A DNA stretch of 64,000 nt from Zygnema cylindricum (taxonomy: Eukaryota > Streptophyta > Zygnematophyceae > Zygnematales > Zygnemataceae). Position numbers and translations under genes: made by a program. The stretch covers positions 51,478 through 115,477 of the forward strand of contig JBBHKE010001206.1 in the NCBI GenBank assembly GCA_037447655.1. Reading direction: 5' to 3'. Shown here piece by piece: positions 1,151 to 33,351 of this stretch; the stretch's first letter is position 1, and each line of letters begins with the position of its first letter. The notes below the pieces were generated by a model. That model saw only the letters and a list, made by a program, of their open reading frames with translations. It did no database searches and was not told where the DNA came from.

Positions 1151-1153
1151 GCT

Positions 1154-2062: not shown

Positions 2063-2089
2063 GACCAGCCACACATGATTTCGTGAAAT

Positions 2090-6080: not shown

Positions 6081-6092
6081 CTCCCCTTAATT
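6081..6092 (-). other. Polypurine tract of copia A
   Basis: The minus strand reads taaggggag immediately before the LTR TGTTG start. This is the plus-strand DNA priming site used in LTR-retrotransposon replication. Confidence 0.8.
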
Positions 6093-8165: not shown

Positions 8166-8189
8166 GAAGCTAATCTAGATAGTGCCGAC

Positions 8190-9426
8190 TCCAACTTGAT
8201 ATAAACCCAAATGATTGACCCCTTGACAATCATAACCCCATTAAAGCTTCACCCCTGTGAAGTAAGACTTTCTGTGTGCTCAGTTCCACCACAGAATGCA
8301 ATGTTAGAATATCATATTTGGACACATTCCCCCACTTTGACTTTTCCTTGGAAATGCAGCCACCCAGGCAGGCAAAATCTCTGACCGACTACACCCCTAT
8401 ATAGCTTGGACTCCCCTGAGTCCGCAGCAACAAAAATCACTGAAATTGGTCAACTGAGTTGATAGTTATGGCTGGCCAAAGTTTGCCATTTATACAAGGT
8501 GCTCTCTGGGAGAGTCAGCTACCTACCCGAAATATTCTAAGTCCTAAACCCCTCTCTAAACCCTCTAGTACTGAGGTACGGACCAATCACATTACTGTAT
8601 AGTACATAAAGGTACAAATGCCGGTGTACCTTTTGTACGGACATCGTACGACATGGCTAATAAGTTAACAAATGTCCTATCCAGATTCGCTCTTGTATTC
8701 TCCGGAATTCCTGCCTCCAAATCTTATCTCTCCACGTGGCGCCAGGTCATGCCGCGTCAGAAAACGGTACCGTACAATAAAGTACAAGTGCCGGAGTACT
8801 TTCTGTACGTACATTGTACGATGTCGCCATAGTGCGACATTTGTCACTCCCGAATTTGTTTTCTGCCGTTCCGGAAATTCCGTAATCCCGTACGATGTTG
8901 CCACGTGTCATCCGGGTGGCGGCGTCTGCACACTGCCAAATTTTCCTTTCCGCGATGTCGGCGCTTACCACAGCCGTCTGATTTACATCGTAACTAAAAC
9001 GGACCGTCGAAATAAATGTCCGTACTATTTATTTCGTCCGATGCTAAAAGTACAACTGTTTCTATGCCCTGAATACCGTAATCCAGTTAAATGGAATTCC
9101 CTACCTGTAACTATATAAATATCTATCAAACCCTATATGTACTAGCACTAGTCCTAGACTAAATGGACAAAGCTAACGTCTACGGGACGGTTCACCGACG
9201 GTAGGTACCAGGATCAATTCCTGGGTCTGTCAAATACCATTTTGGTAAACATACCTATATTATCTATTCCTGTCTCTTTGGAGAGCTTAGGCAGCCATGG
9301 CTCTAGCTCCCTCTCCAGCCTTTAGTGACTACGACAAGTGTGGGGGCTTGGAGAAGGGAGTCAGGGGCAGACTGCCTCCACTCTTTTCTATCTAATAAAG
9401 ACCTAGAAAATACCCAAATATCAACA
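8190..9426 (-). repeat. 3' LTR of copia B
   Basis: On the minus strand it begins TGTTGATATTTGGG at 9426. The same start is found on the plus strand at 63139 and 63645. It shares blocks in the same order with the split LTR 5048-5223/12653-13473, and more distantly with the A LTRs. It contains gccacgtg G-box cores and many gtacg words. ORFs on both strands over it (8672-9118 and reverse) are not supported as genes. Confidence 0.75.
9154..9229 (+). other. tRNA-like segment inside the B LTR
   Basis: A perfect 5-bp T-arm is present: CCAGG, loop ATCAATT, CCTGG (9208-9224), matching a pol III B-box core (GGATCAATTCC). About 50 bases upstream is an A-box-like ctagactaaatggac. The same pair recurs in the split LTR (12690-12780, minus) and at the window end (63951-63968, minus). 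It lies antisense to the element. No full cloverleaf forms, so it is tRNA-derived rather than a tRNA gene. Confidence 0.5.
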
Positions 9427-9429
9427 CTA

Positions 9430-10735
9430 CCCTTATTTTCTAGTCTACTTCCTTTCAACTATTACAAACAAAATAAACAAAACACTCCCTCCCCTTTTTC
9501 CTTTTTCTTTTCTTTTTCCTTTTATATAACTTATGAAATATGCTCTCGTATTTAAAACAATGCATTAGATGAAATGAAATAATAATTGCATCACACATTT
9601 CATTTAGCATCCCACTTATCATAAATCCGAGTGAAGATTTTATCAACCTCATCTCTTTTCCATCCACACTAAATCTGATTTCCCTCTTGCAATTCAAACA
9701 GCCAGCCCCATCTCCAATCTGCAACACACATCTTGAGGCTAACCCTTTTACAGGCACACCTTCATAAATGTCATCACTCCCTTTAGTGATGTCAAACCTA
9801 TTACCCCCAAAACATGAACTTTCCTCACTCTCTCCCATGGATTTCTTTCCACTCTCACTTTCTAAATTTATTCCCAATAAATATTTATCCTCCCCTAAAC
9901 CTTTCATTAAATATTCCTCTTCTTCCTTATCCTTTAAAACCCCTTCTAGTTTCACTTCTCCCCTTTCCTCGGAATCCATTGAAGTTTCCCTTTCCGACCA
10001 GTTTTCTAATTCCAAAATACCTATAAAATTATCCTCATTAATTTTATTTTTCCCGTTTTCACTTAGGGATCCTAGTTCTGACTTTATCATTTCTAAGTCA
10101 TACACTTTACACTCCTCACCATCCTCAAGTACCTCCTCTCTCTTTACTTCCCTTATACCTCCAAAAGCACACTGTTGCCTTCGTGGAATTTCTGTGTACT
10201 TTTCTCTCTTCTCCATTCTACCGATGTGAAGAAGCTCCAAGATTTTTTCATCCTCTTTCTCCTCTTCCCCTTCTTCCTCCTCATTCACACTCCAACTTCT
10301 GAGTTCTTCCAAACGAGGACACTCGTCCATATAGTGACCCAGTTTCCTACAAGCGAAGCAAACCCCTTGTTTCAAAGCTCCCCTTTCTTTTCCTCTCCCT
10401 CTCTTTCCACCAAAGTTCCATAAGGTTTACCTTTGTCTTTCTTCCTCTCATCACGCTTCTGCTCGTCACCGCTGTTCCTCACATCACGCTTCCGCCAATC
10501 ACCACCAGCTGTAAATGCAGTCACCCTCTCACTTCCCCTACGAAGCTCCAAGGTGCTTTCCCTCACAAGAATTATCCCCATGGTAATGCATCCAAGTCCA
10601 TGAGGAGACATCCATTCCCTGCATACGGTAAATGATGTCTTCGTACTCATATGGGAGCTTCATGATTAGTGTATTAATCTTTCTCTCCTCAGATTCTACA
10701 TATCCCGCACTAGCAAGTTCAACATAATCCTCCTA
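9430..10735 (-). pseudogene. Copia B interior: gag tail, zinc knuckle, RNase H fragment
   Basis: From 10735 leftwards the sequence repeats the C-terminal half of a copia gag (the INTLIMKLPYEYEDII motif, then RESTLELRRGSERV). It then has a CCHC zinc knuckle (CFACRKLGHYMDECP, 10360-10319), a nucleic-acid binding motif of the mature nucleocapsid. A long Glu/Lys-rich tail follows and passes straight into an RNase H fragment (CVLQIGDGAGCLNCK, about 9757-9700). Protease, integrase and reverse transcriptase are deleted. The 306-residue frame from 10375 to 9455 is therefore a deletion fusion, not a designed gene. Confidence 0.75.
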
Positions 10736-11693
10736 GGGATATTGGGATATAGGGATTTGCAATGACATAATCCTCCTCGAGAAGTTCCTCTCTCCTGTCT
10801 ATCAAATCTGCCACCTCCTTATCCTCTTCCTCCAAAGTTTTGATAAGGATCTTTCTCTCTCTCCTCATCGGGCTTCCGCCAATCAGCTCCTGTAGACAAT
10901 GCTTGAACACTTGGACTCCTTCTCCTAAGCTCTGTAGTGCTTTCTTTTACTAGAATCATTCCCACTGTGTCATCCCAATTCCAATTGTTATCTCCTATGT
11001 CCTGCAATCGATTAATGATATTCTCATACTCTCCAGGTAGTTTCATCATTAATGTGTTCACTCTTTGTCTCTCAGACCATGAGTTACCTGCACTCTCTAG
11101 CTCTCTAAATAATGCTCCTAAATCATTGCAATAATTATTCATGCTTCCTCCCTTATAAGTATAAGTTGCAATCTTGTTTTCTACCAACTGTTGCTGCTGC
11201 AATGATCCACTCTTATATTTGTTAACTAGTGATATCCAAATCTGAGATGAAGATTTGACGTGCATAAGGGAAATGGCAATGCACTTTGCTACACTTTTAA
11301 GAATTAAGAGCTTAGCAACCTTGTCCTTGAAGTTCCACTTTTCATACTCTGATCTTTCAATATGAACCCTTGTCGCCGTTGCTAGTGGTGCTGCTGCCGG
11401 TATCGCCCTCGGCAATGGTGTCACTTGAGTTGCAACTCCTCCCATTTCTCCTTCCATGAGAATCTCCTCTCCTTCCCCGTCTTCATCCTCAATGATGGTG
11501 GCAGCTGTTCTACCTACTGTAGAGGCGGAGGCGCCAAAAAAACGCGTTCCTCCAAACCCAAGTGGAGGTGGGCATCGAACTTGTCCGCACACTATGCCCC
11601 ATGGGTGTTTCTCAAATAGTTCTCCCTCCATCATCATTTCCCAATAAAGAAAGTCTAATCCATCAAATATGGTACCCTAGAGGGTGGGCCCAT
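10719..11693 (-). pseudogene. Copia A gag
   Basis: Copia-type gag (UBN2-like) that would coat element RNA. The frame starts at the ATG within the primer-binding site (11693-11691), reading MGPPSR. One lost base near 11668 shifts it, then it continues as MMMEGELFEKHPWGIV from 11637. Recognisable blocks are SYEKWNFKDKVAK-like core, AISLMHVKSSSQIWISLVNK, IATYTYKGGSMNNY and VNTLMMKLPGEYENIINRL. After 10819 the frame breaks and the zinc knuckle expected next is absent because of the B junction. A Pro/Ala/Thr-rich stretch near the N-terminus looks like an internal expansion. Confidence 0.85.
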
Positions 11694-11696
11694 AAC
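11683..11696 (-). other. Primer-binding site of copia A (half initiator tRNA-Met)
   Basis: The minus strand reads GTTATGGGCCCACC directly after the 5' LTR. It is complementary to the anticodon arm of plant initiator tRNA-Met (GTGGGCCCATAACC), the half-tRNA priming mode known from Drosophila copia and yeast Ty5. The ATG in it is also the first gag codon. Confidence 0.8.
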
Positions 11697-11697
11697 A

Positions 11698-12652
11698 TGC
11701 AATTATGTGGTCTCCATTGACCCAGAGAATGAGCAGCCTGTGTAAAGCCTCTAGGATAATATTTGCCCCTTATACTTTCCCGCTGAATAAGCGCTGCCCA
11801 AAGCCTCTAGGATAATATTTGCCCCTTATAATTTCCCGCTGAATAAGCGCCGCCCAGGCACACAATATTCTGATCACTCTCACCCTTGTGAGGAGAAGAC
11901 TCCCCTGAGTCAAACGCAAAAAGAATCACTGAATTTGCTCCCCTGAGCAGTAAGTTATGGTTGGTCAAAGATGACCTTTATAGTTACAAGCTCTCTTAGA
12001 GAGAGGTACCTACATTTCACTAAGTCCTGGTCTGCCTACTTACGACTGCCTACTAATAAACCCTAGTCCAATAGAAACACTATATAGTAAAAGAAGTTAC
12101 ATTAGGCGAGTTACTTATTGTACGGCCATTGTACGACATGGCTTTCAAAGTGACACCTGTCAAAACGGGAGCCATGGTTCCTCCTCCCATCTTCTTCGGT
12201 ATCCAATAGTATGGTGCCACGTGGCATCGCGTGACGCTATCCCCAAAGGCCGCCGAAAATTTATTGCGGGTGGCGGCTGCAATTGTGGTTGTTCGATCAT
12301 TTGTATTTGTGCGGCTTCGATTCGCTTCCATGCATGAATTGATTAATGCGTGTTTTCGTAAGTCAGCAACAAATTAGCCCTTTTAACAAATAAATAAATA
12401 TGCGTGAAACGAAATATGTATATCGTTTTGCTAGTGCCTTAATGGATAAGGCTAAGGTCTAAGTAATATTCCGTAGACACCGGTTCAAATCCGGCTAGAG
12501 GCAGTATTTTGCTACAAATAGTAAAATACCTTCTATTTCATTCTCCCTCCTAAATGACGCGGTAGCCATGGCGTGCCTTTGGTTATCTCTTTCTCTCTCT
12601 TTACATTCTAACTTAACTATAGAAGTGAACTATTAATTACCTCTTTTCAACA
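11698..12652 (-). repeat. 5' LTR of copia A
   Basis: 955 bp, minus-strand start TGTTGAAAAGAGG at 12652 and end AATTGCA at 11698. It is longer than its partner because of a roughly 70-bp internal direct duplication (aaagcctctaggataatatt at 11735 and again at 11802) and because it keeps the 43 bases of the tRNA-like segment. Confidence 0.9.
12431..12505 (+). other. tRNA-like segment inside the A 5' LTR
   Basis: The segment has a D-arm with a 6-bp stem (12436-12452, gccttaatggataaggc), typical in wording of tRNA-Arg D-arms. It also has a T-arm with a 4-bp core stem, CCGG TTCAAAT CCGG (12480-12494), giving a near-consensus B box GGTTCAAATCC. Acceptor and anticodon stems pair poorly. In the 3' LTR the D-arm survives at 5907-5923 but the rest is deleted. 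Confidence 0.55.
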
Positions 12653-13473
12653 GTTAAGTTGTTAATTTACTAAAAGGTAGTTGTCGCTTAGAGGATTTGA
12701 TCTTGGTACCTACGGATGGAAAATGGCGCCGGTGGCCGGTAACCTCATCCATTTAGTCTAGGATTAGTGGTAAGAAAAAGTGTATTACGTATTTAAACGT
12801 TAACATGTAGACAAATTCATTTAACAACAACTATGTACGGGATACATAAAGTCAGTTATAAAAGTATAGATTACGAGTACGAAGAATAAAAAAGTACCGC
12901 GCATGTGTTTCGATAGCGAACAAATACATCACAACTATTTATGACGGCTACGATTGAAATCGGCATTCAATCAGACGGTCGGAAAGCATGCCGAGATCAC
13001 GGAAGAAGATTTCAGCGGATTATGGTCGCCACCACATCGGATGACACATGGCACCACGATATTAGATTTCGGCATCTCCAAGGATTACGGAAATGAATCC
13101 AGAAAAGACACGTGTCGACATTTTTGTCATGTTGTACAATGTTCGTACATAAAGTACACCGGCAAGTGTACCTTTCTGTATGGTACAGCAATATGATTGG
13201 TGCCGTACGTCAGTAGATAGAGTTTTACAAAGAGATAGGACTTAGAAAAAATTGGTAGATAGGACCCTCTCTCCCAAAGAGCTTCTATACAAAAGGTCAA
13301 ACTTTGACCCTCCATAACTTACTGCTCAGGGGAGCAAATTCAGTGATGTTTTTTGCTATAGACTGAAGGAGTCTTGCCTTAATAGGGGTGAAAGTGATCA
13401 GAGTTTTTGTTTCCCAAGGTGGAGGTTATTCGTGCTGAAAGACAAAGGGGTCAGGGTTATCCTAGAGGCTTCA
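12653..13473 (+). mobile_element. Right part of the plus-strand copia LTR split by element A
   Basis: Continuation of 5048-5223. The reverse complement of this block follows the B LTR from its tRNA-like segment to its far end (tRNA-like at about 12690-12780, the gtacg-rich middle, gctcccctgagcag near 13325, cctagaggcttca end). Together the two parts make about 1 kb. It ends around 13473, where gypsy gag coding sequence starts, so it is either a solo LTR in gypsy 1 or the event that truncated gypsy 1. Confidence 0.7.
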
Positions 13474-16400
13474 TGTGAGCAACTTACTCTGAGGTCCTAT
13501 GGAGGTCTCAAGGTTGTAGAAATGAAAAAAGTATGGGAACATGAACTGCGGCTGATAAGGGACGCACGGCTTAGGTCCGAAGGACTTCTTAGGGAGCAGG
13601 TCTATACTTCTCCAATACTTAATCCTTACATCCAAGAGCCGACAATGGAAGCCGCTCAAGTTCCCAAGTCTCACCCTAAGAAGACTCCATATGGGAATCC
13701 ACAAGAACTTCCTATTTAGCGGGGAGGGGGAGGAACAACAGGACCTAATGAAAAGGGCTTGGGTGCAGATCTTCCTTCGAAGTTCGCTTCTATCTCTCGG
13801 GAGCTTCCTACCTTTGTATCTGTGGTGATCTCCTCCGCCGTGGAGGCTTTGGTGGAATTACGGCTAGACGAAAGGATCCACATCCCTTTGAGACTAGCTA
13901 CTCCTCCTCCGCCACCTTCCCGACAAAATCGTGATCCTACCTCCTCTCCTCCTCCGCTCACTTCACCTCTAGCACCTCCCCAAGATATTCCTATAGGGCC
14001 CCCAGGGTTGACAGTTGAATCACTTGCTATTGGCGCGCGGCCAGAAACTTCCATTCGCGCCAATTCTCCACCTCACCGGCGATCTCAATCATCCAGTTTT
14101 GAACCACTCCCTTCTCCTCTTTCTAGGCGCACTGCCAGGGGGCAAACACCATATCCCAAGCAAGATCCTTCGCCATCTGCGTCTTCTTCGTCATCCAAAG
14201 GAACACCTCCAAACAGACCGGATCTTAAAATCCCACTAGAAAGGAGAAGTCGGCGATCGCGAAGACCTTTCGCACCTCGAGGAACAAGAGTGTTACCTGG
14301 GTGAGACATTTACCCCCCAACCATCTTTTCAAAACCAGGCACTTCCTCAATGGGAGGGAGAGTAGCCATTTCACGAGCTGCTACTTTTGTTGGAGAAGTA
14401 GGCAATACCGGATCTGAAAACGAAGAGCAAGGGGTGATTTCACCGACGTAGGGTTTTTTAGGGTTTTTTAGGGTTTTTAAGGGTTTGTCAGTCCCACTAG
14501 ACCTCCCTCTCCCCAATTCACTAACCTTGCGGAGGAAGAGAAAGAGATGGGGGACAAACGAATATTTACGAGGGATAATTCCGGGATCGCATTCTCAGAT
14601 TTTCGAACTATTGTGGAAATCTTTCACCCGGTTCGAAATCAACAAATATCGGGGAGGGGTTATTCCGGATGACTTCGAGACTACCCTCTTCCCCATGATA
14701 GTCAACTATCTCTACAGGGGTGCTTTGACAGCATACAAGGAGCGGCAACATCTCCTGATGGCTATTAGCATCAAAATCTTCGACCCGACTCTCGATACCG
14801 CAGTTTTTCAAGCGGAAGCCGGCTTGGCTTCAGTGGCAGCGGCTCCTGTCTCTCCCGCCTTTACCGAGGACATGAAGCTGCAGTCTCAAGGTCTAGACAA
14901 CGTTAATCAATTGCAAGTTATTTAGGCAGCTCGAGCTGCCACTCGAATGATCGCCAACCCCACCCCCTACACCACACTCCTCGACGCCTAGAGACTTTTG
15001 TATACCGAGAGAAATGAGCCATCAAGGAATTCACGGACTTCCGATGCTTGAAAAATAAGACGCCTCAGATCCTTTTTAATAGGCTCTCCAGTCTCTGCCA
15101 GAAAACAAAGATGTAAACTATTGATCTTCTTGCAATGGCGACCAAGTACTTTATCGCTGTCCGAATTCGTTCGGACCCACCGGGTAGGCTGCACGGATAA
15201 CTGGATCGCAGGGCAGGCAATCCAAGACATTAATCCCTCGGCTAAAGAAATCTCCTTGGCATCCATGAAACTGTACGACAACTTCGTCAACAGTGAGGCT
15301 CGAGAAAAGGCTGTCACCGGCAAAGCCCTAGCAAATTTCGTCGGGTTTGCCGGAGAAACCTTTTTGAGCAGTGAAGAGCGAGATGAACTCCAAGCGTTGC
15401 GGAAGCTTAAAGGAAAAAAAATGGCTGATAGCAGATCAAAGCCCGCAATGGGGGCAGATGACAGAATGATTCTGTATAATTGTCTGAACAGTCAACGGCC
15501 ACGGGTGGAAACGGTGCACCCGAAAACTCAAACCGAAACTCGCTCTGAAATAGAAGGAATGGGAAAAAGAAAGGGCTGAAATAACCCAAAAGCAAAACGA
15601 AAGGAAATAGGGAGGGGGATCGGAGGACAAAACACCCGTAACAAATGACAATTACCGCCCAACGCCCTGATCAAAAACGTCGAAAATGTCTCAAGCTCAG
15701 TTGAGATTAATAAAACTTCCAAAATTTGATGACGCTAAAATTTCTAATGAGTTACGTAGCAAATACACTACCGAGGGTTCAAAATGTGATGCATGAGAAT
15801 TTATCGGACACAAGGAGGGGCAATGTTTCCGAAAGAATGGGGTGCCAAAGGAGATGATGCAATACGATCTGTTTACCGGTGAAGGGGAAGCTGCCGTGAA
15901 TCCTCTCACTCTTCAGCTCCTTTACCTATGTAGACGCCGCACAATGGAGGAACCCGAACGAACACCGGCAGATCAAGCACCACGTACACCGAAAGAGATA
16001 ATTCAACATCAACACCAGCAATTGGCCGCGATGGCTTCTTAAATTCTCCCACCCGGCTGGCTGCTATGACGGTTGCTTTGAAACTCCAACGGAGAAAACA
16101 AGAGCTATTACAAAAGCTAGCAGAGCTTGAAAAAAAAGCCACAGCGGCTGGGGATAATGGCGATATTATAGGATGGGATATGACGCCTCCAAGAGTTAAC
16201 CATGCCCACACTTTTCAGTCAGAAGCCTGGAATGTGGGAGTGGGGGATAATCGCAGAACACTCCGCAACACCATATCGAAGCAAAGGAGGGAGAGACAAG
16301 AACTGGCCCCGAGAGAGCATAACAGAAAGATCACAGGACCATTCTCATTCACCCCCCGGGCAGTTATCGTGAATAACGACACCGGCCTAGTAATAAAACC

Positions 16401-16500
16401 TACAAATCCTCCCCCACTAGGTGTGAAAAAACTGCAGCCCGGATTCGAAAAATACAAGACAAACAAAAAAATGGAGACAGAGAAATAACCAAAGAGGAAG
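13474..16500 (+). pseudogene. Gypsy 1 gag
   Basis: A long gag-like region in several phases. It opens with a charged N-terminus (EHELRLIRDARLRSEG near 13550), then a Pro/Ser-rich part (13759-14304, opening MGADLPSKFASISRELPT) that is shared with gypsy 2 and with the fragment at 32660-33350. A capsid-like core follows (QIFELLWKSFTRFEINKY near 14600; IPDDFETTLFPMIVNYL), then a helical part at 15121-15579. A CCHC knuckle sits near 15785 and charged tails run to 16488. Stops at 14304 and 14923 and frameshifts break it. The TAG at 14923 is also present at the homologous spot in gypsy 2. The phrase tttttttagggtttttt around 14448-14480 resembles telomere repeat by chance. Confidence 0.75.
15785..15825 (+). 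other. Gypsy 1 gag zinc knuckle with second Cys codon replaced by TGA
   Basis: Codons tgt gat gca tga then EFIGH and KEGQC give the CX2-C-X4-H-X4-C spacing of a retroviral nucleocapsid knuckle, but the second Cys position (15794-15796) is TGA, one base from TGC or TGT. Confidence 0.7.
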
Positions 16501-16535
16501 AGAAGCGGAAAACCTAAGACTGGTTCGAACAGTAC

Positions 16536-17246
16536 ATGGCAGAACGCACGGAGGATGATACACCAGCGACACCTCCCACGCCAGGTTCGGATGCCGAAGA
16601 AGAGGAAGCAAGGGGGGGGGGGCAGGAGAAAACGGAGGAGCCGAGTACCCCCATTTCACCGCCTAATGTTGCGCCTCCATCCTCCAAACTAGCTGATATG
16701 TTAGTCCGGCACCTAATGCCCTACGCCCTCACACATGTAAAAACTCTGGCCTCATCCCACAATATGCCAGAAGATATCATTATTCAGGCATTGGGAGAGG
16801 AAATCCACTTGGGAAAGTAGAAAGTAGGGTTGGCAGATCGATCCAGTTCCAACTTTTTATCCGCCGAACCCAAGACCCCTATGATGGATAGGGATTACAA
16901 GGCCTTATCGGTGGCTCTCATCCTCAACCGGACCGGAAATTTCAAGCTCAACGGATACAGAGGCTATCAGGATGCAGTGGTCGATACCGGTGCGCTTTCA
17001 AATTTAATAACAACTTCTGCTTTACAACAGATGCCTGAGGAATCACAGCCAGAAATCTTACCAAGCGACATCTACCTGAGTACAGTTAGCAGCGGAAGTC
17101 AACCGGTCCATGGAATCATAAAAGCTATGGAAATTGAATTCTCAGATGATGCGGGTCAACGAGTCCGGATCCAAACTCCCCTTCCTAGTGGTGGAAGTGA
17201 AGCAGTAAGAGATTCTATTGGGGATGGCAACTTGGACCCAAATTAA
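16536..17246 (+). pseudogene. Gypsy 1 aspartic protease
   Basis: An acidic linker (MAERTEDDTPATPPTPGSDA) ends in TAG near 16818. The retropepsin domain follows in the next frame: QDAVVDTGALSNLI carries the catalytic Asp-Thr-Gly (Asp codon 16983-16985), and a later hydrophobic strand GIIKAMEIEFSD follows. Retropepsin would cut the gag-pol polyprotein. The flanking sequence runs on to about 17640 (NRGKINALVSGCYLLYA) without a recognised function. Gypsy 2 has lost this whole part by deletion. Confidence 0.75.
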
Positions 17247-17639
17247 TATGAAGTTGAGTGTGTGGAAGGAGCAGTTCACGGTGAGGGACACCGAGGACCC
17301 CGAGGGGACCCAGGTGGTGGTTCCCATGGGATTATGGAATAGAGGAAAGATAAATGCGCTTGTGTCCGGCTGTTACCTCTTATATGCCACATCCTCTCCG
17401 ACAGAACTTTTTGCTTGTTCACCAGATATTGCCGACGAGATATAGCAATTCCCTATTTCCAAGCGGTGGGAAGAGGAATACCAAGACCGATTATTTCAAA
17501 TGGCAGCACTTCGGCGGGAAGTGGAACAGGCTTTTACAGCTATAACACCAAATAAGCTAATTTCAATTCTTCGCTAAGAATCTTCGGAAATCCTGTCCCT
17601 AGATGGGAAGTTCAACCGACAGGTGGTGTCGCTGACAAT

Positions 17640-18640
17640 CCCAGGTTCCGAACTCCGAATTGTATCATTATTTTCGGGAATCGCCACTGATTAGGAAGTG
17701 GTTTTGAAAGCAGTATACAAAGTGGAGGCGTATACGCCTGTGAAAATATCACTCGAAGCTCGAGCCGTCAGTGAGCATCTCCTACACCAACTTCACCAAT
17801 TATATCCTCAACAGCTCCCTGTGTCGGCAATCTCCCAAGCTCACCGAAGCCTACCTCAGAATGTGGAAAATATCATGACCCCACACATAGCAAGTCTAGG
17901 AAGGGTAGATTTGGTGGTAGTATGATGGCGTTGTCAAGCAACCTCCCTAGCAGGACAAGGAAAAGGACATGGAAACCAAACAAGCAAGACTTTCTTTCAG
18001 ATGATACAAGTAATATCATGGATAAAACAGCTCCAAGACACACCCGTGGGGTATGTTTTGGAGAATTTCCACCCGGGGGGTGACTGGCGACAACATGTAG
18101 CAGACAGTTGAAAACATGTCATCCAGATTTTAGGAATCCCGTTGATTTTTGATGCGGCACAGATGGGATCGCTGGCCCGCCGAGTAAGGGCTTATTGGAC
18201 CAATTTGATCCAAATTCCCCTTCTCCAGCAGCTCCTAAACATGCATATTCCAGACCCAAACAATACGGTACAACAAATCCTGGAAAAGGGGCGAATGGCC
18301 ACCCAGTGACAAAAACTGACCGTTCTCCCTTCTTCAAATGCAACAAACCAGGATTTCCACGCAGAGCCCTTCCAACCTCGGCCTCCTTCCCCAACAACCA
18401 CGCGTATCGGAAAAGGGCAGCCTGAATGATATTCGACACTACCGCAGGAAAATGGACAACACCAACTATTGCAGAAAGGAACAAGCCATGGGATTCTACC
18501 TCGAAACTACAGCTGCACCAGGTATTTCGGAACCCCAAAGATGCAGCCTCATCGGACAGAGCATGGACTTGAACACAATCACATAGGTTATCAAACATGC
18601 TCTTGCCTTTTCAAATCTCCACTCTCCAGAGAAGAAAAAT
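17640..18640 (+). pseudogene. Dnmt3-like cytosine-5 DNA methyltransferase domain in gypsy 1 pol
   Basis: A C5-methyltransferase would transfer methyl groups from S-adenosylmethionine to cytosine. Motif I is IVSLFSGIATD (17659-17691), the cofactor-binding loop. An acidic residue follows in KISLEARAV (motif II-like). Motif IV region is VDLVVV, a TGA (17923), then WRCQATS, keeping the catalytic Cys (17932-17934). Motif VI is YVLENF (Glu at 18061). Motif VIII is DAAQMGSLARRVRAYWTNL (18151-18207). The C-terminal target-recognition and motif IX/X part is EQAMGF, then RCSLIGQSMDLNTIT near 18480-18590. Motif order is the unpermuted I-IV-VI-VIII-X order, as in Dnmt3, not the permuted order of land-plant DRM. 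In-frame TAG at 17692, TGA at 17923 and 18109, and two frameshifts kill this copy. It lies between protease and reverse transcriptase. Confidence 0.85.
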
Positions 18641-19009
18641 AGTTACCTTCAAGCTCCTAAATTGTTAGCAATGCAAGCAGCTTTGCAGCTTGAGGGGGGA
18701 GAGAGAGAAGAAAAAATCAATTCTCCCATCTGAGGGTCCCTCCAGTGGGGGGGGGCGGCTGCTCTAAAGGGAACAACTTAGCGGAAGTTGTCAACTATAG
18801 GGTCCTGGCCGGAAGGGAAAAAGTAGACCCACAGGTAGGATCCAAATTGGATATTACTAGATGGGGCCGACCCCCGGAAGCATGGGCAGCGGTGGAGCCA
18901 GGGAAAATGGATTGGACACTGGGGGAGTAGTTGGATCCTCAACAAAGGCCGTTATCCGGATCATTGTAAAGAAAACAAACAGGTATTCTCCTGGTCAGAA
19001 ACAGATGTC

Positions 19010-20345
19010 GGCATTTACAAAGGAACTCCTTTCCGAATTGACTTGATAGATGAGACACCAACTATTTGGCAGAAGCAGTATCCCATCAGTTTTAGGGAAA
19101 AAGAGTTTATCACCGCCAAAGTTCAGACCAAGGTGGAAGCAAGGTTGGTTCAAGAAAGCACCGGACTCCATGGGTTTGCTTCCCGAACCGTTTTCCCTCC
19201 AAAGAAGGATGCCTCAAGGAAAACAGTAGATTTTTGGATGTGTGGGGATTACCACATGCTCAACACGGCTACTATTCCAGACTGGATCCGATGCCAACCC
19301 CGGAAAAGATTTTCGACTCTCTTTCGGGGGCCACCATCTTCTCTACCCTTGATATGAAGAACGGGTTTCACCAAATTGCCATGGAACCGAAACACCGGGA
19401 GAGAACGACATTTTGGGCAGGTTCCCGGTTATACGAGTGGATATACATGCCCTTTGGGTTGAAAAAGGCGGCGGCAAAATTTCAAAGGGCGATGGACGAA
19501 GCCCTCCAAGGAATTGATTGTGCCAGGTGCTATATTGATGAAGTAATTATTTTCTCCAAGACTTTTGAAGAACACGTGGAGCATATTCAGATTGTCCTCC
19601 GGGCCCTTCAAGCAGCGGGTTTGAAATGCCACCATGGTAAAGGTATTTTCGGTGTTCATAAAATTATTAACCTTGGACATGAAGTAACCCCTGGGACAGC
19701 GGGTCCCCATATGGTCAAGGTTGCCGCTCTCGACGCTCTTCCCCCACCTCAATATATATCAGCTGTACGCAGTTTTTTTGCCCTGGCTTATTATTACCGG
19801 AGGTTCATTCCCAAGTTATGTAGTCACGCCCTACCTCTAAATGAGTTGTTGCGGAAAGACCAAGAATGGCAGTGGGCCATCAAGAAGGAGATCGCCTTCC
19901 AATTTTTGAAAGACACACTCAAGTAGCACCCCGTGCTCCGAATGCTCAATCACCAAAGACCTTTCCTCCTTTACACTGATTGGAGCAGGTTTGGATTGGG
20001 GGCTGTTTTAGCACAGGTGGATGATGCCCTAGCATATAAGTAGTGGCTTACGCTAGTCGGAGCAATAACCAAGCCGAAGGAAATTACAGCAGCTACCACG
20101 GGGAAATCCTTGCTGCAGTTTGGGTGATTCAGCATTTTTCGGCCATATTTATACAGGATCCATTTCACTTTAATTATAGACCATCAACCTCTGAAATGGA
20201 TCATGGAAAATAGCAAATTAACCAGCAAACTCGCCAGATGGGTTCTTATCTTGCAGGAATACGATTTCAGTATTATCCACCGGGTAGGAGAAATCCATGG
20301 GAATGCCGACGGACTCAGCCGAAACCCCGACCCCTCCACATAAGA
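19010..20345 (+). pseudogene. Gypsy 1 reverse transcriptase and RNase H
   Basis: The fingers start near 19043 (IDETPTIWQKQYPISFREKE; VEARLVQESTGLHGFAS). A frameshift near 19268 follows. Then come LDPMPTPEKIFDSL, the STLDMKNGFHQIAM Asp block, FGLKKAAAKFQRAMDE and the catalytic motif mutated to YIDE (19531-19542, normally YIDD). The connection GLKCHHGKGIFG and LNELLRKDQEWQW continues to a stop at 19926. RNase H follows in broken frames, with FLLYTDWSRFG, SYHGEILAAVWVIQHF-like sequence and IIHRVGEIHGNADGLSR at about 20275-20325. Two independent lesions in the catalytic core make it inactive. Confidence 0.9.
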
Positions 20346-20574
20346 TTCTACCAGAGCCAGACACGATGAGGATCCAGAGATCAGTTTGGGATTAATCCAG
20401 GCCTCCTCGGCTTTTATTTGGCTTCCGCCATCTGGGGGGGAACAGTCCACATTTTCAGCCGACGTGGAAGGACAAGCACCCATAGGAGCCGGGCGGAAGG
20501 ATATCTCGAATGACCCCGATTCCCTGCAATCCATACAGCCAGGATCTCTTCTTCCAAACTTGTCTCGAGTTTAA

Positions 20575-21733
20575 TTGTCCCGAGTTCAAATCCGTATGGC
20601 GGCGTATGACTGGGACAGATGTATTCTTCTCCAGGAATGGGCGGACGAGACAAAGAAAGTGGTTCATCCTCCCTTCAATCGAGAAACTGTGATTACCCGT
20701 CTCCATCACCAATGTGGACATTTTGAGCAAAAACGGACCACTTCTCTAGTCATTGGATCTTATTGGTGGCAAGGGTTTTCCTCTCAGGTCAACCAAATTG
20801 TAAAGACTTAATCTTCTTGCGACCGGGTAAAAGCAGCTTTCCACAAAAAGGGTGGAACCGAGTTGCATTCTTTGCCCATCCGAGGAATGTTTTATCGATG
20901 GTCTCTAGATCTCTTGGGGCCTCTGCCGACCAGCCGACGGGGCAATCGCTTCGTGCTCGTAATGATCGAACATTTTTCCAAATGGATAGAATTGGTGGTT
21001 TTGCCCCGGAAGGAATCAAAGTCTATTGCAGATGCCTTTTTCTAAAAAGTGTTGTCTCAATTCGGAGCGCCCACGGAGGTTTGGACCAACCAAGGCTCTG
21101 AATTTGCTGGAGAATTTTCCGATCTCTTGGAGAAATGCCAAATGGACCATCGGCTAACCGGTCGGGACCACCCACAAGCCGACGGATTGGCCAAAAGGTG
21201 CGTCCAAACAGTGAAGCGGTCACTACGGAAATATGCGGTCGAAGAAGATCTGGGGGAGTGCGACCGAAGGGTTCCTTAGATTTCCATGGGATACAGGTTC
21301 AACCGACAACCTTCCCTCCACTCCTAAAAACCTTACTTCATCCTATTTGGACGACATCCCATCCTCCCCGAAGCCGCCTCGGCCTAGGCGGTGGTTCTTC
21401 CAGAAATGGATGACCAGAGGACTGTCAAAAAACTGATCTCTGAAAGAGCTAAAGTTTTCCACCATGAGATACCTCTTGCCATGGGAAATTTACAGTCGGC
21501 TCAACACCAGGATCAGTTGTGGTATTCCCAACGACGGAGCAAATATTATCTGCCCAGACAACGATGATTTATGCCCAGGATTTTGTAAACAGGATGCAAC
21601 AAAAAAAGGACACGTTAGATATTTCTGCCGGTCGGCTAATCTTAAAATTGGTTGATTTTTTCTAACAAGGGGGTTCTTACTTTGGGGGGGAAAGATGGTC
21701 GAAGAATTAAAGAGAACCAAATCAATGTGGCTA
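20575..21733 (+). pseudogene. Gypsy 1 integrase (split by copia E)
   Basis: The zinc-binding HHCC part reads RLHHQCGHFEQKRTT with YWWQGFSSQVNQIVKT. The core begins SLPIRGMFYRWSLDLLG, with the first catalytic Asp. The second block reads WTNQGSEF, where the usual Asp is Asn. The third reads ADGLAKRCVQTVK, where the usual Glu is Lys. Gypsy 2 keeps Asp and Glu at both places. The C-terminal tail (DTLDISAGRLILKLVDFF, then KDGRRIKENQINVA) stops at 21733 where copia E starts. It resumes at 26311 with GLADEPTFHLTYFANPP. Confidence 0.85.
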
Positions 21734-22695
21734 CGTTGTTTTGAAAAATCAGTTTCGTGCGTAAGTGCTAATTGGATTTGATATGGAGGTTTGAATAGAT
21801 TCACCGATGGGGGGAGCGAACGGATTGATAATGAAAGTTACGTAAAAGACTCATTGAGTGGTGTGAACAAGCAATGACAAATGGACGGCGGATGGCGAAG
21901 CGATCCGATGTAAAATAAACGGAATGTTGAAATAGGTGCCGCCGCTACGGAGCAGCTGCGACGCAGTTAAGTCAACGCAGTTGCGGTTATTTTTATTATC
22001 CGTACGGAAAGCGCAGCCAGCGCAGCCAGCGCAACTACAGATAATATGAATAGGATAGATTTCAAGTAATGATGATTAAACGATAGTGGTAGCTTAGTGG
22101 TTGCTTAGTGGTAGCTTAGTTTCTAACATACGAAGAGTACGGTGTAAATATTCTGTACAACAGAGGTTTGTCCTTTTGACTAGTAAGTTCATTAGAGTAG
22201 ATACAGTACGGCTGGTATGCCTCCGTACTCTGAGTATAACTTGCACGACTTATATTATTTTATGTATCGCAGTCAAGTTAATCAAAGTAATGGCAAACTG
22301 TTTTCTGCATCTTTGACCTGTTGGTGTGATCACTCTGATTGGTGCTTTCATGTGAAACTTTGTGGAGTTATTCTATGATATAGAATCTATATGTGTGTGA
22401 AGTTTCATTGTATTCCAGTATCTCTGTAAGATTCTGCGAACAGTCTAAGTGGTTAGTTTGTGAAGCTGTCAGCAATTTTTGGGAAACTCTGGAGCTTATA
22501 TCTTCTAGATGCCGTGGTGGATTTGGCTGTAACTTTGGGAGTTTACAGTGTATATAGTATACTGCATATTGGTGCAATTTGAGATCATTTTGTTTATTGT
22601 GGAGTAATCTGTGTTGTCTAAAACCCAGCTGTTTTTGAGGTAGTGTGTGGGTGTTTCCGTGAGTTATCCATGGATGAAATAAGCTATTGACAACA
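21734..22695 (+). repeat. 5' LTR of copia E
   Basis: Aligns along its full length with 25349-26310 with scattered substitutions. The first base is C where the partner has T (cgttgttttg against tgttgttttg). It ends gacaaca directly before the primer-binding site. The U3 contains cgtgcgt, aagcgcagccagcgcagcca and a tandem gtggtagcttagtggttgct. Confidence 0.9.
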
Positions 22696-22708
22696 GGTTA
22701 TGGGCCCA
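22696..22708 (+). other. Primer-binding site of copia E, containing the gag start codon
   Basis: ggttatgggccca follows the LTR end without a gap. It is an exact complement of the anticodon arm of plant initiator tRNA-Met. Its ATG (22700-22702) is the first in-frame Met of gag. Confidence 0.85.
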
Positions 22709-23668
22709 CACCCATGGCTACCTATATTTGATGGATCAAAATATCACTACTGGAAGTGTGCGCTCGAGAGCTACTTCGAGATGATGGAGCTAATGGATGT
22801 GGTGGATGGTACCTTGGCCAAAACATCAAATGAATGGAAAAGGAAAAATCATGAGTGTCTAAGAGTTATCAAGAACTCCTTGACTGAGGATTTGGTAATG
22901 TCATACCTAAGTTTTAAAAAGGCACCTGAATTATGGAAGAGCTTAGAATGTATGTATGCAAAGACGTCTTTATATCATTGGCTTAGTAGTGTTACCAAAA
23001 TAGTTGAACACAAGTATGTAGGAGGTAGTATGGAGAAACACTGTATTGATTTACAAGTATTATTTGTAGAAAATGATTTGGCAGGGGGAAACTTTACAGA
23101 TGCTCAACAAGCTATCTTGTTAATGAGAAGTCTACCCAAAGAATATAAGAGTGCACTAGATTGATTGACTTTAATTGATAAAAACGATTGGAGCGTAACT
23201 GTAGCTAGACGAGTTATTCTAGATGAAGAGGCTAATAGAAAGTTCTTATCAAGTGAAAGGAATATAAAGGAATCTAAGTCTCAGTTTGAGAAAGTTAAAG
23301 GTAATAGTGAGTTCGGAGATCGGCCAAAGAATTGTTTTTACTGTAATGATTTAGGACATACCTTCAGGGTATGTCCATCATATAAAAGTGCATGTGTTAC
23401 AGGGAAGTTTAGAGATGGATGGGACAACACCCTAGTTCGAACCCCAACAAGAAAGGAATCCAGTGCTTTCGTGAGTGAGAGACAAGACTCGACAAATGAC
23501 AAAAGGTATATACCATGTGTTGACGAATTTATGTATTTACCAACCTTCTGTGGTGTTTGGAATGGAGTAAAGGAGGAGGTGACAGAAAAGGATTTGGTGA
23601 CTGTCCTTTTTTCAGACGTTAGATTGGTGAGTAACAAAGAGTTACAGGAGGAAAATTGTTTGAAGTAA
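22700..23668 (+). pseudogene. Copia E gag
   Basis: Copia gag starting MGPHPWLPIFDGSKYHYW in the primer-binding site. Family blocks follow: ALESYFEMMELMDVVDGTL, SYLSFKKAPELWKSL, VEHKYVGGSMEKHCIDL and AILLMRSLPKEYKSALD. One in-frame TGA at 23162 separates it from the C-terminal part (VARRVILDEEANRKF). A good CCHC knuckle follows, CFYCNDLGHTFRVC (about 23332-23373), then WDNTLVRTPTRKESSAF. It would form the virus-like particle and package RNA. Apart from the stop, this is the best-preserved gag in the window. Confidence 0.85.
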
Positions 23669-24420
23669 GAAAAATTAGAGGAAGTGAAGGTCACTTGGAA
23701 GTGGAAGCCGAAAAATACTTAAACATAAAGACTAATAAACTAAACCCAATTTATCTAGAAGGACAAGGCGAAGATATGAAGAAAACTGGAATTAGGAATG
23801 AGGTGTATAATGTGGAAACTGGTGGAAGGAGTTATGTCACCGAAGATAGTGTGGTGAAGGACGAAAGAGAGAAGGACATGATTTCTGTGACCTTATCAGA
23901 TGACAAAATCTGTGAGTGAAAATTGCCTACAAGAAAGTTTGTTAACTGAAGCAAGAGGAGTTGAAGGAAGATATGGACACTTAGAAGCAGAAACTAGAAA
24001 TAAGGTGGCAGTAAAAATTGGTGAACTAGGAGAAGAATAAAGAAAAACTGTTCAGAAAATCGGAGTGAGAAAAGAAGTTTGTGGGAGTGAAAAATATAAT
24101 AGAAATGCAAAAGTTAGAAATATAGCAAAGGAAAATAGCAAAGAAAAAGTACAACTGAAAAGAAGAAGAATCAAAATTAAAATTTATCAGATAAATGAAG
24201 TTGATGGAAGTAGAAAATCTATGAAAAAAAACATAAAGGTGAAACAGAAAACTAGTATTTGTGACATTAAACTAGTAGAAAATTGTGACAGAAATGTAAA
24301 CTTTCAAACAAGACAAAAGATCATGAAGAAAACAAAAAGAAGATGTAATATTCAAAGAATCAGGGGTAAGAGAAAACATGCTCAAAAATTGATCAAGAAA
24401 AGAGAGCGGGAGAAATGATT
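23656..24420 (+). CDS. Lys/Glu-rich open frames downstream of gag in copia E
   Basis: Two open stretches (23656-23919 and 24065-24418) encode peptides rich in Lys, Arg, Glu and Asn, such as KRRRIKIKIYQINEVD. No family is recognised. The A-rich composition on the plus strand makes such frames likely by chance, but the strong basic charge (117-residue frame) could suit RNA binding. I treat this as a degraded gag extension or spacer. Confidence 0.3.
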
Positions 24421-25348
24421 TTCTGGAGGATATTTTTGACATTCGATTTGTTTTTGGTTGGACTTTAGATTTGTATTCTTCCTTGTTGAGTTAGTTGAAA
24501 AGAAACAAAAAGATTTATTTATGTATTCTTGAAGACAAAGGAGGTGGTGGAAGCAATGACTTGTTCAGGAAGGAAAATTTCGGGAGACATGGTAGAGAGC
24601 AGCGAAGGAAGGAAAATTTTGGGAGACATGGCAGAGCGCAGCGAAAGCAGTGGAGAATCATCAGAAGAATTTCGCGTCGCAAATAGCGACGCAACTTAGC
24701 GGCGCAGCGAAAGGAGTGGTGATATATGACACTTACATGGTGATTATTTTATTCCAGGTGCAGGCAACTAAATATTCAAGGGTTATGCATTTATGGCGTA
24801 AGAAGAGCTATTACAGGACACTTTTTGAAAGAAGGCAGCAAGCAACTGGGAATTGGCAGAGGGCAGCAGGAGCGATGGCGACGTCGGCAAAACACTGGTG
24901 ATGTGTAGTTTTTGCTAAATTTAATGTATGATGAACAGTGGAGGTTGATACAGAATTTTAAATATTTAAATATTTTTTTTATTTCTTAGTTTATCCATTA
25001 GAGTGGAAACATTTGCGTACAACATGGACTAATGCGTCTAAAGCTTTAGGGGAGTGTAGATTTTGAAAGCTTTAGTCTCAGTAGATGAGGCTATGAGGAG
25101 GAAGTTAAAGGTGAAAAAAAGAGCAGCAATTAGGACTGCGATGTCAAACTAGCGCAGCATAGCAGTACACGCTGCACTTTGTATTCATACTGCGTTGCCA
25201 TGTCAAACTAGCGCAGCGTAGCAACATAGCAGTACACGCTGCACTTTGAATTCATACTGCACTGCGATGTCAAACTAGCGCAGCGTAGCGACATAGTATT
25301 ACACGCTGCATATTTTTCTGAGTGCACGAAACTAAATTTTCGGGGGAG
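24421..25348 (+). other. Copia E 3' internal region with short tandem repeats and polypurine tract
   Basis: No coding domain. At about 24565-24645 a 40-base phrase (ggaaggaaaattt.gggagac) is repeated twice. At about 25133-25310 a unit of roughly 60 bases (gatgtcaaactagcgcagc followed by agtacacgctgcactttg) occurs three times. The region ends aaattttcgggggag (25334-25348), the polypurine tract before the 3' LTR. Confidence 0.75.
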
Positions 25349-26310
25349 TGTTGTTTTGAAAAATCAGTTTCGTGCGTAACTGCTAATTGGATTTGATATG
25401 GAGGTATGAATAGATTCACGGATTGGGGGAGCGAACGGATTGATAATTAAAGTTACGTAAAAGACTCATTGAGTGGTGTGAACAAGCAATGACAAATGGA
25501 CGGCGGATCGCGAAGCGATCCGATGTAAAATAAACGGAATGTTGAAATAGGCGTCGCCGGTACTGAGCAGCTGCGACGCAGTTAAGTCAACGCACTTGCG
25601 GTTATTTTTATGATCCGTACGGAAAGCGCAGCCAGCGCAGCCAGCGCAACTACGGATAATATGAATAGGATAGATTTCAAGTAATGATGATTAAACAATA
25701 GTGGTAGCTTAGTGGTTGCTTAGTGGTAGCTTAGTTTTCTGACATACGAAGAGTACGGTGTAAATATTCTGTACAACAAAGGTTTGTCCTTTTGACTAGT
25801 TAGGCTATTAGAGTAGATACATTACGGCTGGTATGCCTCCGTACTCTGAGTATAACTTGCAGGACTTGTATTATTTTATGTATCGCAGTCAAGTTAATCA
25901 AAGTAATGGCAAACTGTTTTCTGCATCTTTGACCTGTTGGTGTGATCACTCTGATTAGTGCTTTCATGTGAAACTTTGTGGAGTTATTTTATGATATAGA
26001 ATCTATATGTGTGTGAAGTTTCATTGTATTCCAGTATATCTATAAGATTCTGCGAACAGTCTAAGTGGTTAGTTTGTGAAGCTATCAGCAATTTTTGGGA
26101 AACTCTGGAGCTTATATCTTCTAGATGCCGTGGTGGATTTGGCTGTAACTTTGGGAGTTTACAGTGTATATAGTATACTGCATATTGGTGCAGTTTGAGA
26201 TCATTTTGTTTATTGTGGAGTAATCTGTGTTGTCTGAAACACAGCTGTTTTTGAGGTAGTCTGTGGGTGTTTCCGCGAGTAATCCATGGCTGAAATAAGC
26301 TATGGACAAT
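25349..26310 (+). repeat. 3' LTR of copia E
   Basis: Starts TGTTGTTTTGAAAAATC right after the polypurine tract and ends gctatggacaa. It is the full partner of 21734-22695. Antisense ORFs inside both LTRs (about 60-100 residues, HQYAVYYIHCKLPKLQPNP) are conserved only because the LTRs are duplicates. Confidence 0.9.
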
Positions 26311-26438
26311 CATCTTGTCATCTTTGAGGACTGGCGGACGAACCCACTTTCCATTTGACTTATTTCGCCAACCCTCCTTCCAGCTCCACCTCCTGTGATC
26401 TATCCTCCCCGCTTGACCACGTTTTGGTATGCAACAAC
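26311..26438 (+). pseudogene. Gypsy 1 integrase tail between copia E and copia C
   Basis: Reads GLADEPTFHLTYFANPP and then HVLVCNN, matching the gypsy 2 integrase end (GLEDKPTFHLTYFADPP, SVLVCD). A TGA precedes Gly. It proves that E and C both sit in gypsy 1. Confidence 0.85.
26434..26438. repeat. Target-site duplication of copia C (left copy)
   Basis: acaac here equals 32202-32206 on the other side of the element. Confidence 0.9.
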
Positions 26439-27283
26439 TGTTTTCCTAAGACAACTGCTGGTACTGAAGATGAAGAAGAAGCAGAAGGAGTAGTCATTGT
26501 AGAAAAAAATAAGAGAGGAAGCTTCCAAATATACCAATGGCAAAACAGCAACTTTGACAGACAATAACTTTCAACACAAGGACATAATAGTCCTACAAAT
26601 CTACCACAATGTAGATATCATACAAAGAAACATACACATAAAATTTCACTTAATTCTGCTGACAGATCTGTGAGATTTTCATAGGTGAATTTGCATAAAA
26701 CTGAGTGTACAGTTTTTCTTATCATTTGTTCCTAATGAATCAAAATTTACTAAGTCTTACTTCTATACACTGAAACTACACTAAGCTGTACGGAGGCATT
26801 CCAGCCGTACATCTAACATTCTAACACAACAAATACTGTGAGTATGCCTGTATACTGAAGGTATGTCATAAACCACATTCTCAACACTAAACAACTAATT
26901 CACTACAAACAAAATTATGTTCTACCAAATATTTATACCGACGTTCCGATAACGTAAAGTGATAGTGATCTAGTCATGCCCCGTCAGTATTTGTTGGCGG
27001 CGGCTATCAGCCGTCCGATTAGAGGATTTGGCACCATAGATGTGACTTCACTAAGTACTATGGTCCGGCCAAATTTTCGTACGTCCACGGAGGACATACT
27101 CACGCATTTCTCTCAAGTGACGACGCGTGTCCCAAGTGTGAATGAACCGTGAACTCCCAACTTCACTGTCACACTAATTTTGGTAAGTACTTAACCAAAC
27201 TCAACCAAAAATAACTTAAGTCCTGAACAGCTCTCTCTCCCTCACAGCTGAGGTATAGAGAGGACTACAGTTTTTTAAAAACA
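26439..27283 (-). repeat. 3' LTR of copia C
   Basis: Minus-strand start TGTTTTTAAAAAACTG at 27283, end CA at 26439. Same length as the 5' LTR. The polypurine tract (aggggagggt, 27284-27293) precedes it. Confidence 0.95.
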
Positions 27284-27309
27284 ACCCTCCCCTAAAGCTT
27301 TAGACTTTG

Positions 27310-28913
27310 CTAGTCACTCAGTCCACATGCGTCTCTACATAACTTCAATTTGGGTGCAAATAAGGGTTTCGTCATCATATCAGCCACCATTTGCTCATCC
27401 GGTAAATAACTCAACTTCATGACTTTTCCCATCACCTTTTCTCTTACAAAATGTAACTTGATATCAATGTGCTTACTCTTAAAGTGATGACTGGGATTAG
27501 ATGCTATAGCGATTGCTGCCTGATTGTCACACCATACTATCTGTGGTCCAGATTTCATAAAGAGAAGCTCTTGGAGAAGAGACTTTACCCAAAGTAACTC
27601 CTTAACTGCCGAGCTGGCAGCCATGTACTCAGCCTCCATGGTAGACTGAGTTGTTACCTTATAAAGTTTGCTGCTCCAGCAGCAAGTTCCACTTCCGATC
27701 TTCAGAATGTATCCGTTGGTGGAGCGTGGGCTCGGCATATCTCCGTAGCTCGCATCGCTCCATGTATGAATTTTGACTTCCTCTCCACCGAGAGAGAGTC
27801 TAAGATTTCAAGTTCCTACAAGATAGCGAATAACTCTCTTTGCTGCCTCATAGTCCGACTTCCTCGGATTTTGCAGGCTTCGGCTCAAGGCTCCAACTGC
27901 GGCTGCGATGTCCGGACGAGTACAATTCATGACATAGATGAGTCTTTTGACAATCTGCCTGTAAGGAATGGAGGAAATAGAATCTGCCTCCCCAGGATCC
28001 AAAAAATCATCAACCAAAACACCACCATCCGTTTTCGTATCCTCTAACTTCTGCCTGAATTCCATAGGGGTGGCACTCCCCTTTGCTTCTGAAATACCAA
28101 ACTTTTCTAGCATGTTCCAGATTGCTTCTTTTTGAGTTAGATAAATAATTCTCTGTTTCCTATCTCTTTCTACATGGATTCCTAGAATATACTTAGCCTC
28201 ACCCAAGTCCTTCATTTCAAACTGAGAATTCAGATCTGATTTTATTTTATTGATTTCTTGATAGATTTTCTAATCAACACCAAATCATCTACATATACAG
28301 CCACATAAATCACTCCATCCTCACCTTGCATTACATAGGCTGAGTGATCTGAACTGATCCTGGTAAAGCCAAGATTGGTTAAAAACTCATCTAACTTCAG
28401 GTTCTATTGTCTCGCAGCCTGTTTCAGACCATACAAGGACTTCAACAGTTTACAGACTAGATTTTCTTTCCCTTTTTCTGCATACAACTCTGGCTGCTTC
28501 ATATAAATTACTTCTTCCAAATCACCATGCAAGAAAGCCGTCTTAACGTCCATCTGATGCGATTCCATATCCTTTATTGCAGCAAGAGACAACAAAACTC
28601 TCACAGTAGGAAAACGAACCACAAGAGAGAATGTCTCTTTATAATCACTTCCCTCCTTCTGACTAAATCCTTTATCAACCAGTCTAGCTTTATATCTTTC
28701 AATTGTATTATCAGGATTCAATTTTAATTTGAATACCCAGTTACAACTGATAGCTTTCCTGTTCGCTGGGAGCTCCACAAGTTCCCTAGTTTGGGCTTCC
28801 ATAATTGACTTTATCTCATCATTTGCAGCCGAGATCCAATGATCCTCTTCAAGAGCGGAAAAGGCTTCCTGGATAGTAAGCGGCTCCCCTGTGCTTGCAG
28901 ATGCTTTTTCCAC
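27310..28913 (-). pseudogene. Copia C reverse transcriptase and RNase H
   Basis: From 28913 leftwards: [53 protein letters not shown] and [14 protein letters not shown] with a stop near 28404. The catalytic VAVYVDDLVLI follows near 28290, then a stop near 28258 and MKDLGEAKYILGIHVERD (28215). RNase H comes after another stop: GYILKIGSGTCCWSS, STMEAEYMAASSAVKELL and IVWCDNQAAIAIASNPSHH. The C-terminus KPLFAPKLKLCRDACGLSD ends at 27310. The domain set is complete with an intact YVDD, but at least three stops or shifts disable it. Confidence 0.92.
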
Positions 28914-31352: not shown

Positions 31353-31356
31353 GACC
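31340..31356 (-). other. Degenerate primer-binding site of copia C
   Basis: Minus strand GGTCACCGGCCCGCC next to the 5' LTR. It matches the GGTTATGGGCCCAC site of the sister elements with four changes, including loss of the ATG. Confidence 0.7.
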
Positions 31357-32201: not shown

Positions 32202-32206
32202 ACAAC

Positions 32207-33350: not shown

Positions 33351-33351
33351 A

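Follow-up and report, generated by a model that had tools for sequence, protein, structure and literature searches.

Cytosine methyltransferases (MTases) of the Dnmt3 type have been described within the coding regions of several retrotransposons. KnitGypsy-Dnmt3 of Klebsormidium nitens is an LTR gypsy element whose Pol ORF includes the Dnmt3 domain, with a Ka/Ks below 0.2 (de Mendoza et al., 2018, PMC5890265), the accessible text of that paper describing the repeat layout as DIRS-like and the copies as "fewer" than those in Symbiodinium. The K. nitens enzyme gave no methylation in yeast, a result termed inconclusive, and SymbioDIRS-Dnmt3 gave CG methylation in yeast (PMC5890265). A further report, as far as its available portion goes, places DNMT3 in elements of both the LTR and the DIRS kind from streptophytes and dinoflagellates, terming the LTR ones Copia (PMC12344493), and possible roles have been discussed (PMC6338049).

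The closest published parallel to the elements described here, from Zygnema, is KnitGypsy-Dnmt3, of a green alga, and because it was published in 2018 a Dnmt3-bearing gypsy element was already known as a kind; the initial annotation of this DNA was right in stating that published cases existed. Compared by published description in its available part, the two share an unpermuted Dnmt3-type MTase, its location within the Pol ORF of an LTR element of the gypsy type and purifying selection, but the Zygnema elements, unlike KnitGypsy-Dnmt3 as described, number at least 246 loci and fall into three clades, of which one has ECQ at motif IV. SymbioDIRS-Dnmt3 of dinoflagellates likewise joins a Dnmt3 domain and a reverse transcriptase (RT) in one Pol ORF, yet by the same partial account it is a DIRS element with a tyrosine recombinase, whereas the Zygnema elements carry an rve integrase (IN) and a retroviral-type aspartic protease (PR). 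DIRS elements with Dam-like MTases also include an MTase in a retroelement coding region, those enzymes being adenine MTases that are, according to the accessible text of PMC5890265, structurally unrelated. In the open-licence literature, mostly at the level of titles and the opening lines of abstracts, no report of such a copy number, clade structure or ECQ motif IV was found.

Two degraded copies in a 64-kb window

The window, the whole 64-kb stretch of DNA that was analysed, codes at 17640-18640 for a degraded, unpermuted C5-cytosine MTase flanked by protease and RT domains within a Ty3/gypsy element (copy A, plus strand). The initial annotation had proposed a Dnmt3-like MTase built into a gypsy polyprotein, and translation of this interval recovered all the motifs that it named, in unpermuted order. 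Motif I reads LFSGI, motif VI LENF and motif VIII SLARRVRAYWTNL, while the catalytic-Cys region is a stop followed by WRCQATS, the Cys being kept and preceded by Arg. In the frame from 17401, motif I, the catalytic-Cys region, motif VI and motif VIII follow one another within 17650-18309, interrupted by stops, and this part of the domain (motifs I-VIII) was delimited at 17626-18309. The frame-shifted C-terminal part (18310-18640), with the target recognition domain (TRD), motifs IX-X and GQSMDLN, aligns to positions 37379-36990 of a second copy (copy B), the GQSMDLN block near 18554-18575 being reached after frame changes, with it and the TRD in other frames up to 18640. In-frame stops and frame changes thus bear out the earlier view that this copy is dead.

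The proposed position between protease and RT also stands. Upstream of the MTase lies a degraded gag region with approximate boundaries (13676-16820), delimited by blastn matches to copy B, and a single open ORF for an aspartic protease with a DTG motif (16821-17246; Pfam PF13650 E = 0.041, below cut-off). The gag matches are of 14485-15037 to 38305-37752 (70%), 13676-13918 to 33264-33019 (65%) and 13711-13916 to 39051-38846 (66%). Downstream are a linker and RT (18641-19926), 74% identical to copy B in DNA with an RVT_1 match at 19096-19926 (E = 5e-20), an RNase H fragment (20128-20343; RT_RNaseH E = 2.2e-11) and an integrase (20575-21732) recognised by Integrase_H2C2 (E = 3.2e-10) and, below cut-off, by rve (E = 0.0055). 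Similarity to copy B stops at 21732, where another element starts. Self-comparison of the window revealed no flanking repeat pair for copy A, and no tRNA or Rfam match was found in the 64 kb.

The same self-comparison revealed copy B on the minus strand, with pol at 37747-33892 and 72.5% identity between this and copy A 17905-21732. Its MTase (36990-37756) begins at motif IV, AGWPCEGYS, and extends through motif X, the N-terminal half being absent, and a 350-aa open ORF (36483-37535; from the ORF list and its translation) joins the TRD and motifs IX-X to the linker and the N-terminus of RT in a single frame. The RT, RNase H and integrase (33892-36876; 74% to copy A) include matches to RT_RNaseH (E = 1.2e-33) and rve (E = 3.5e-11, 43.7 bits, above cut-off). 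Copy B does not have the stretch between gag and mid-MTase, its gag region (37752-39177) abutting the MTase through an internal deletion such that 38305-37752 corresponds to copy A 14485-15037 and the sequence from 37747 to copy A from 17905. Downstream of the integrase, blastn identified a minus-strand repeat (32673-33355) of 39177-38493 at 68%, which may be an LTR or part of another copy, with mismatches between the pair that are codon-like in places. Both window copies are dead and belong to the clade designated i below. The polyprotein order is Gag-PR-MTase-RT-RNase H-IN.

Other repeats surround the two copies. The element starting where the A/B similarity stops (21735-26309) has 960-bp direct repeats (96.1% identical) and gag-like ORFs, and between copies A and B lie copia-like minus-strand ORFs inside 848-bp direct repeats (26438-32203; 93.9%). 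Minus-strand copia-like RT ORFs are also enclosed by direct repeats at 5270-5928 and 11800-12457 (93.9%), and an 850-bp stretch at 41882-42728 aligns with its reverse complement at 88%.

Class of the enzyme and spread of the family

The expectation of a significant C5-MTase profile match failed for copy A alone, which reached E = 0.03 and 14.2 bits against Pfam PF00145 (cut-off 22), but held for copy B (E = 5.1e-9, 36.4 bits) and for the open-frame relatives L014 (53.4 bits) and L023 (49 bits). When copy A was compared with the PDB using phmmer the best match was 8tci, DNMT3C (E = 1.7e-5), and DNMT3A, DNMT3B or DNMT3C made up 29 of the 30 matches at E <= 10, in agreement with the Dnmt3 affinity first suggested. 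For an open domain from each of the three clades the best match was DNMT3A (L014, clade i, 2.2e-14; L038, clade ii, 3.3e-11; L023, clade iii, 1.1e-10), and as for copy A the top 29 matches were all Dnmt3 in each of these searches (56 matches for L014, 69 for L038 and 44 for L023). HhaI, HaeIII and DNMT2 scored weaker than Dnmt3 for all three open domains, as did DNMT1 in one search (L038) and DRM2 in the L014 search, where it matched one half only (query 18-143). A second weak match stretch in L038 also spans motifs IX-X. By these searches, Dnmt3 is the nearest family of solved structure for copy A, as it is for an open copy from each clade. The truncated MTase of copy B alone had M.HhaI as its best PDB match (2e-4), ahead of Dnmt3, a profile of copies A and B likewise matched M.HhaI better than Dnmt3, and the C-terminal MTase piece of copy B found no MTase in the PDB.

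The catalytic domain type is one shared with the host Dnmt3/DRM de novo methyltransferases, DNMT3A being the best solved match. DRM enzymes are permuted, whereas an alignment of 16 single-frame open domains has the unpermuted motif order I-X, and this together with the one-half match of DRM2 led to rejection of a DRM origin. The elements read WPCQ or WECQ at motif IV, as against SPCN in DNMT3A alignments.

The host genome comprises 352.8 Mb in 2689 contigs. A PF00145 profile search gave at least 123 matches in 122 distinct places (the best 123 of 782 candidates), all above cut-off, while MTase queries from clades i and iii gave at least 119 and at least 127 distinct places (the best 119 of 1875 and the best 127 of 1836 candidates), all at 65% identity or more. 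The two clade lists have no place in common and thus amount to at least 246 element-type MTase loci, the union of all three lists covering at least 304 places including at least one host gene. The best 40 PF00145 places (of at least 122) were fetched, each with 3 kb either side, and 39 of them matched the window MTase and are of the same element type. Identity to the window pieces divided these into clades i (18 loci), ii (8 loci) and iii (13 loci). The exception, L015, has at 3001-3249 a PF00145 exon for which PDB entry 4fsx and a further two similar chains score 99.3-99.4 bits and the next chain 48.7. The entry 4fsx is the maize chromomethylase ZMET2, and L015 is probably an exon of a host chromomethylase-like gene.

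Retention of the domain between protease and RT in other family members, on which the initial annotation had depended, was found from both directions. In 32 of the 39 loci an RT match followed the MTase on its own strand. Among the others, L035 had RNase H and IN and no RT match, L026 had its sole RT match on the opposite strand, and L009, L011, L025, L034 and L047 had no RT, RNase H or IN match on the MTase strand of the fetched stretch. With the window protease as query, a match upstream of the MTase (50-82% identity) was found in 24 of the 26 clade i and ii loci and in none of the 13 clade iii loci. From the RT side, 69 of the best 150 RTs found with a clade i query had a listed MTase upstream and 81 did not, copy A being one of the latter. 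Ten of the remaining unlisted ones, most of them high-ranking, were checked over 0.9 kb, and nine had an MTase match (partial only at L063, L064, L065 and L067), with none within the 0.9 kb examined at L069. In the clade iii RT search, 44 of the best 80 RTs (of 150) had a listed MTase and 36 did not, and the one unlisted RT examined, L071, had an MTase too, bringing the sampled RTs with an MTase to 10 of 11. With the generic RVT_1 profile, just one of the best 50 of 150 places had a listed MTase within 5 kb, on the opposite strand, which among the matches listed hints that other RT families are without the MTase. One clade i RT (G000:C961:71635-72270) falls within an open frame reported at 5743 aa, which is unusually long.

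The suggested genome search for intact copies yielded some loci with open Gag-PR-MTase-RT-RH-IN frames. MTase and RT share an open ORF in 7 of the 39 loci (L014, L023, L024, L030, L032, L033 and L046), and one clade iii element has an open frame of 2395 aa. The single open frame of L023 runs from a zf-CCHC zinc knuckle scoring at cut-off, through a protease that falls below its cut-off, to the MTase, RT and RNase H; then comes H2C2, and last the beginning of rve, below cut-off in a domain cut by the end of the fetched stretch. In L014 rve reached 43.5 bits, above cut-off. The order gag-PR-RT-RH-IN with an rve integrase is that of the Pfam matches (zf-CCHC, Asp protease below cut-off, RVT_1, RT_RNaseH, Integrase_H2C2 and rve). 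L023 lies on a different contig from L024, and the two are 99.9% identical across 5.49 kb, whereas stretches of 600 bp sampled some 5-6 kb farther out have no similarity to each other; this near-identity with unlike flanks makes recent activity of elements of this type likely. No relatives were found in a set of 5.8 billion proteins (148, 55 and 3403 candidates) or among the viral contigs scanned.

Clades, selection and the motif IV variant

Trees of the MTase (16 whole domains plus copies A and B) and of the RT (26 RTs plus copies A and B) are congruent, both reading ((i,ii),iii). A star marks clade iii in the two trees and clade ii in the MTase tree only (84/81 in the RT tree), clade i has none (90/90 and 85/85), and copies A and B group with clade i, on long branches in the MTase tree. 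Across 28 shared, non-independent pairs, dN in MTase and RT correlates at 0.96 with a slope of 1.45, the MTase evolving faster than the RT.

Between copies A and B the MTase dN/dS is 0.169 over 226 shared codons (bootstrap 0.09-0.28), the two wrong frames giving 1.0 and 2.0. It is 0.12 in each of two C-terminal MTase segments, and dN/dS is 0.054 over 944 codons of linker, RT, RNase H and IN. The MTase domain was thus kept under purifying selection after the A and B lineages parted. Since both copies are dead and dS between them is high (1.5 in the MTase), part of the dN accumulated after death. Within clades, median MTase dN/dS for pairs with dS above 0.05 was 0.25 in clade i (26 of 28 pairs), 0.14 in clade ii (2 of 3) and 0.16 in clade iii (3 of 10), the maximum being 0.37 among pairs that are non-independent, and dS between clades is saturated. 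As read from the trees and these ratios, the MTase has been maintained through the division of the family into at least three clades.

The catalytic Cys is present in all 39 fetched loci, as is LEN[VI], in loci that were picked by PF00145 score, a choice favouring intact motifs. At motif IV all 26 fetched loci of clades i and ii have PCQ or PCH, copy B has WPC and copy A WRC, and ECQ replaces PCQ in 13 of 13 fetched clade iii loci (for example L023, near 3260) and in L071, a later clade iii sample. To our knowledge the Pro before the catalytic Cys is near-invariant in C5-MTases, which makes clade iii the most unexpected branch of the family, though its ECQ may be a variant within a known kind. 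It is conceivable, if doubtful, that clade iii represents a selectively maintained C5-MTase variant with Glu for the motif IV Pro, in which chemistry or substrate has shifted or which binds DNA without catalysis.

Possible roles of the enzyme

We consider it probable that a Ty3/gypsy family captured a Dnmt3-type MTase into a Gag-PR-MTase-RT-RNase H-IN polyprotein, where it has been kept by selection and likely methylates the element's own cDNA or new copy. The MTase would be produced as part of Pol and packaged into the particle, where protease cleavage would free it or leave it joined to RT, and it would then methylate cytosines in the cDNA or the freshly integrated copy. Such methylation could hide a new copy from sensing of unmethylated DNA or set a tolerated silent state. 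Self-methylation of cDNA, the likeliest role by analogy, is suggested by the result for SymbioDIRS-Dnmt3 in yeast (PMC5890265, from its accessible text). Against the overall reading stand the lack of yeast methylation, termed inconclusive, by KnitGypsy-Dnmt3, the closest known enzyme, the faster change of the MTase relative to RT, the ECQ of clade iii and the better match to M.HhaI than to Dnmt3 of the copy B piece and the A+B profile. The CpG content, too, lends self-methylation no clear support. Observed-to-expected CpG is 0.71 in copy A (0.60 in its MTase) and 0.67 in copy B, with medians for fetched stretches of 0.65 in clade i (9 loci), 0.70 in clade ii (5) and 0.90 in clade iii (9). Two copia-like elements in the window give 0.55 and 0.80, positions 1-13000 give 0.64 and positions 40000-64000 give 1.16, so that the MTase elements, although below the last of these, lie within the copia-like range and have no CpG loss special to them.

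This same lack of a special CpG depletion would fit a domain retained for binding, for methylation of RNA or RNA:DNA hybrids or for a structural role in Pol rather than for DNA methylation, as would the clade iii enzymes, which keep the Cys without its preceding Pro throughout the fetched loci and still have a dN/dS of 0.16 from three pairs. Such a role is unlikely for the family, given that PC in every clade i and ii locus and LEN[VI] in every locus, among loci picked by PF00145 score, point the other way and the nearest solved family is a DNA enzyme. Rather improbable, too, is an enzyme that works on the host by methylating neighbouring or genomic DNA and so damping other elements or its own element's harm, since benefit to the element is the simplest explanation for selection acting on an enzyme that a transposon carries; even so, hundreds of copies could provide the enzyme in trans, and host-wide effects have been discussed for Symbiodinium (PMC5890265, in its accessible text). 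That copy A alone falls under the Pfam cut-off would be expected of a neutral, passenger fragment of a host gene caught by chance in one dead copy. This reading, now exceedingly improbable, was rejected as refuted by the family data, copy B passing the Pfam cut-off, 39 of the 40 fetched loci being of the element type and dN/dS lying well below 1.

Elements that bear their hosts' own silencing enzyme have rarely been reported. With hundreds of copies, young open ones among them, and three diverged clades, the benefit to a retrotransposon of having its own Dnmt3 would become testable in the Zygnema family, where comparisons are possible between clades, between the methylation of new and old copies and between PC and EC enzymes. 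Were the tentative reading of clade iii true, its enzyme might act by altered chemistry or on another substrate, such as RNA, a hybrid or single-stranded cDNA, or might bind DNA without catalysis, in either case from inside a retrotransposon polyprotein.
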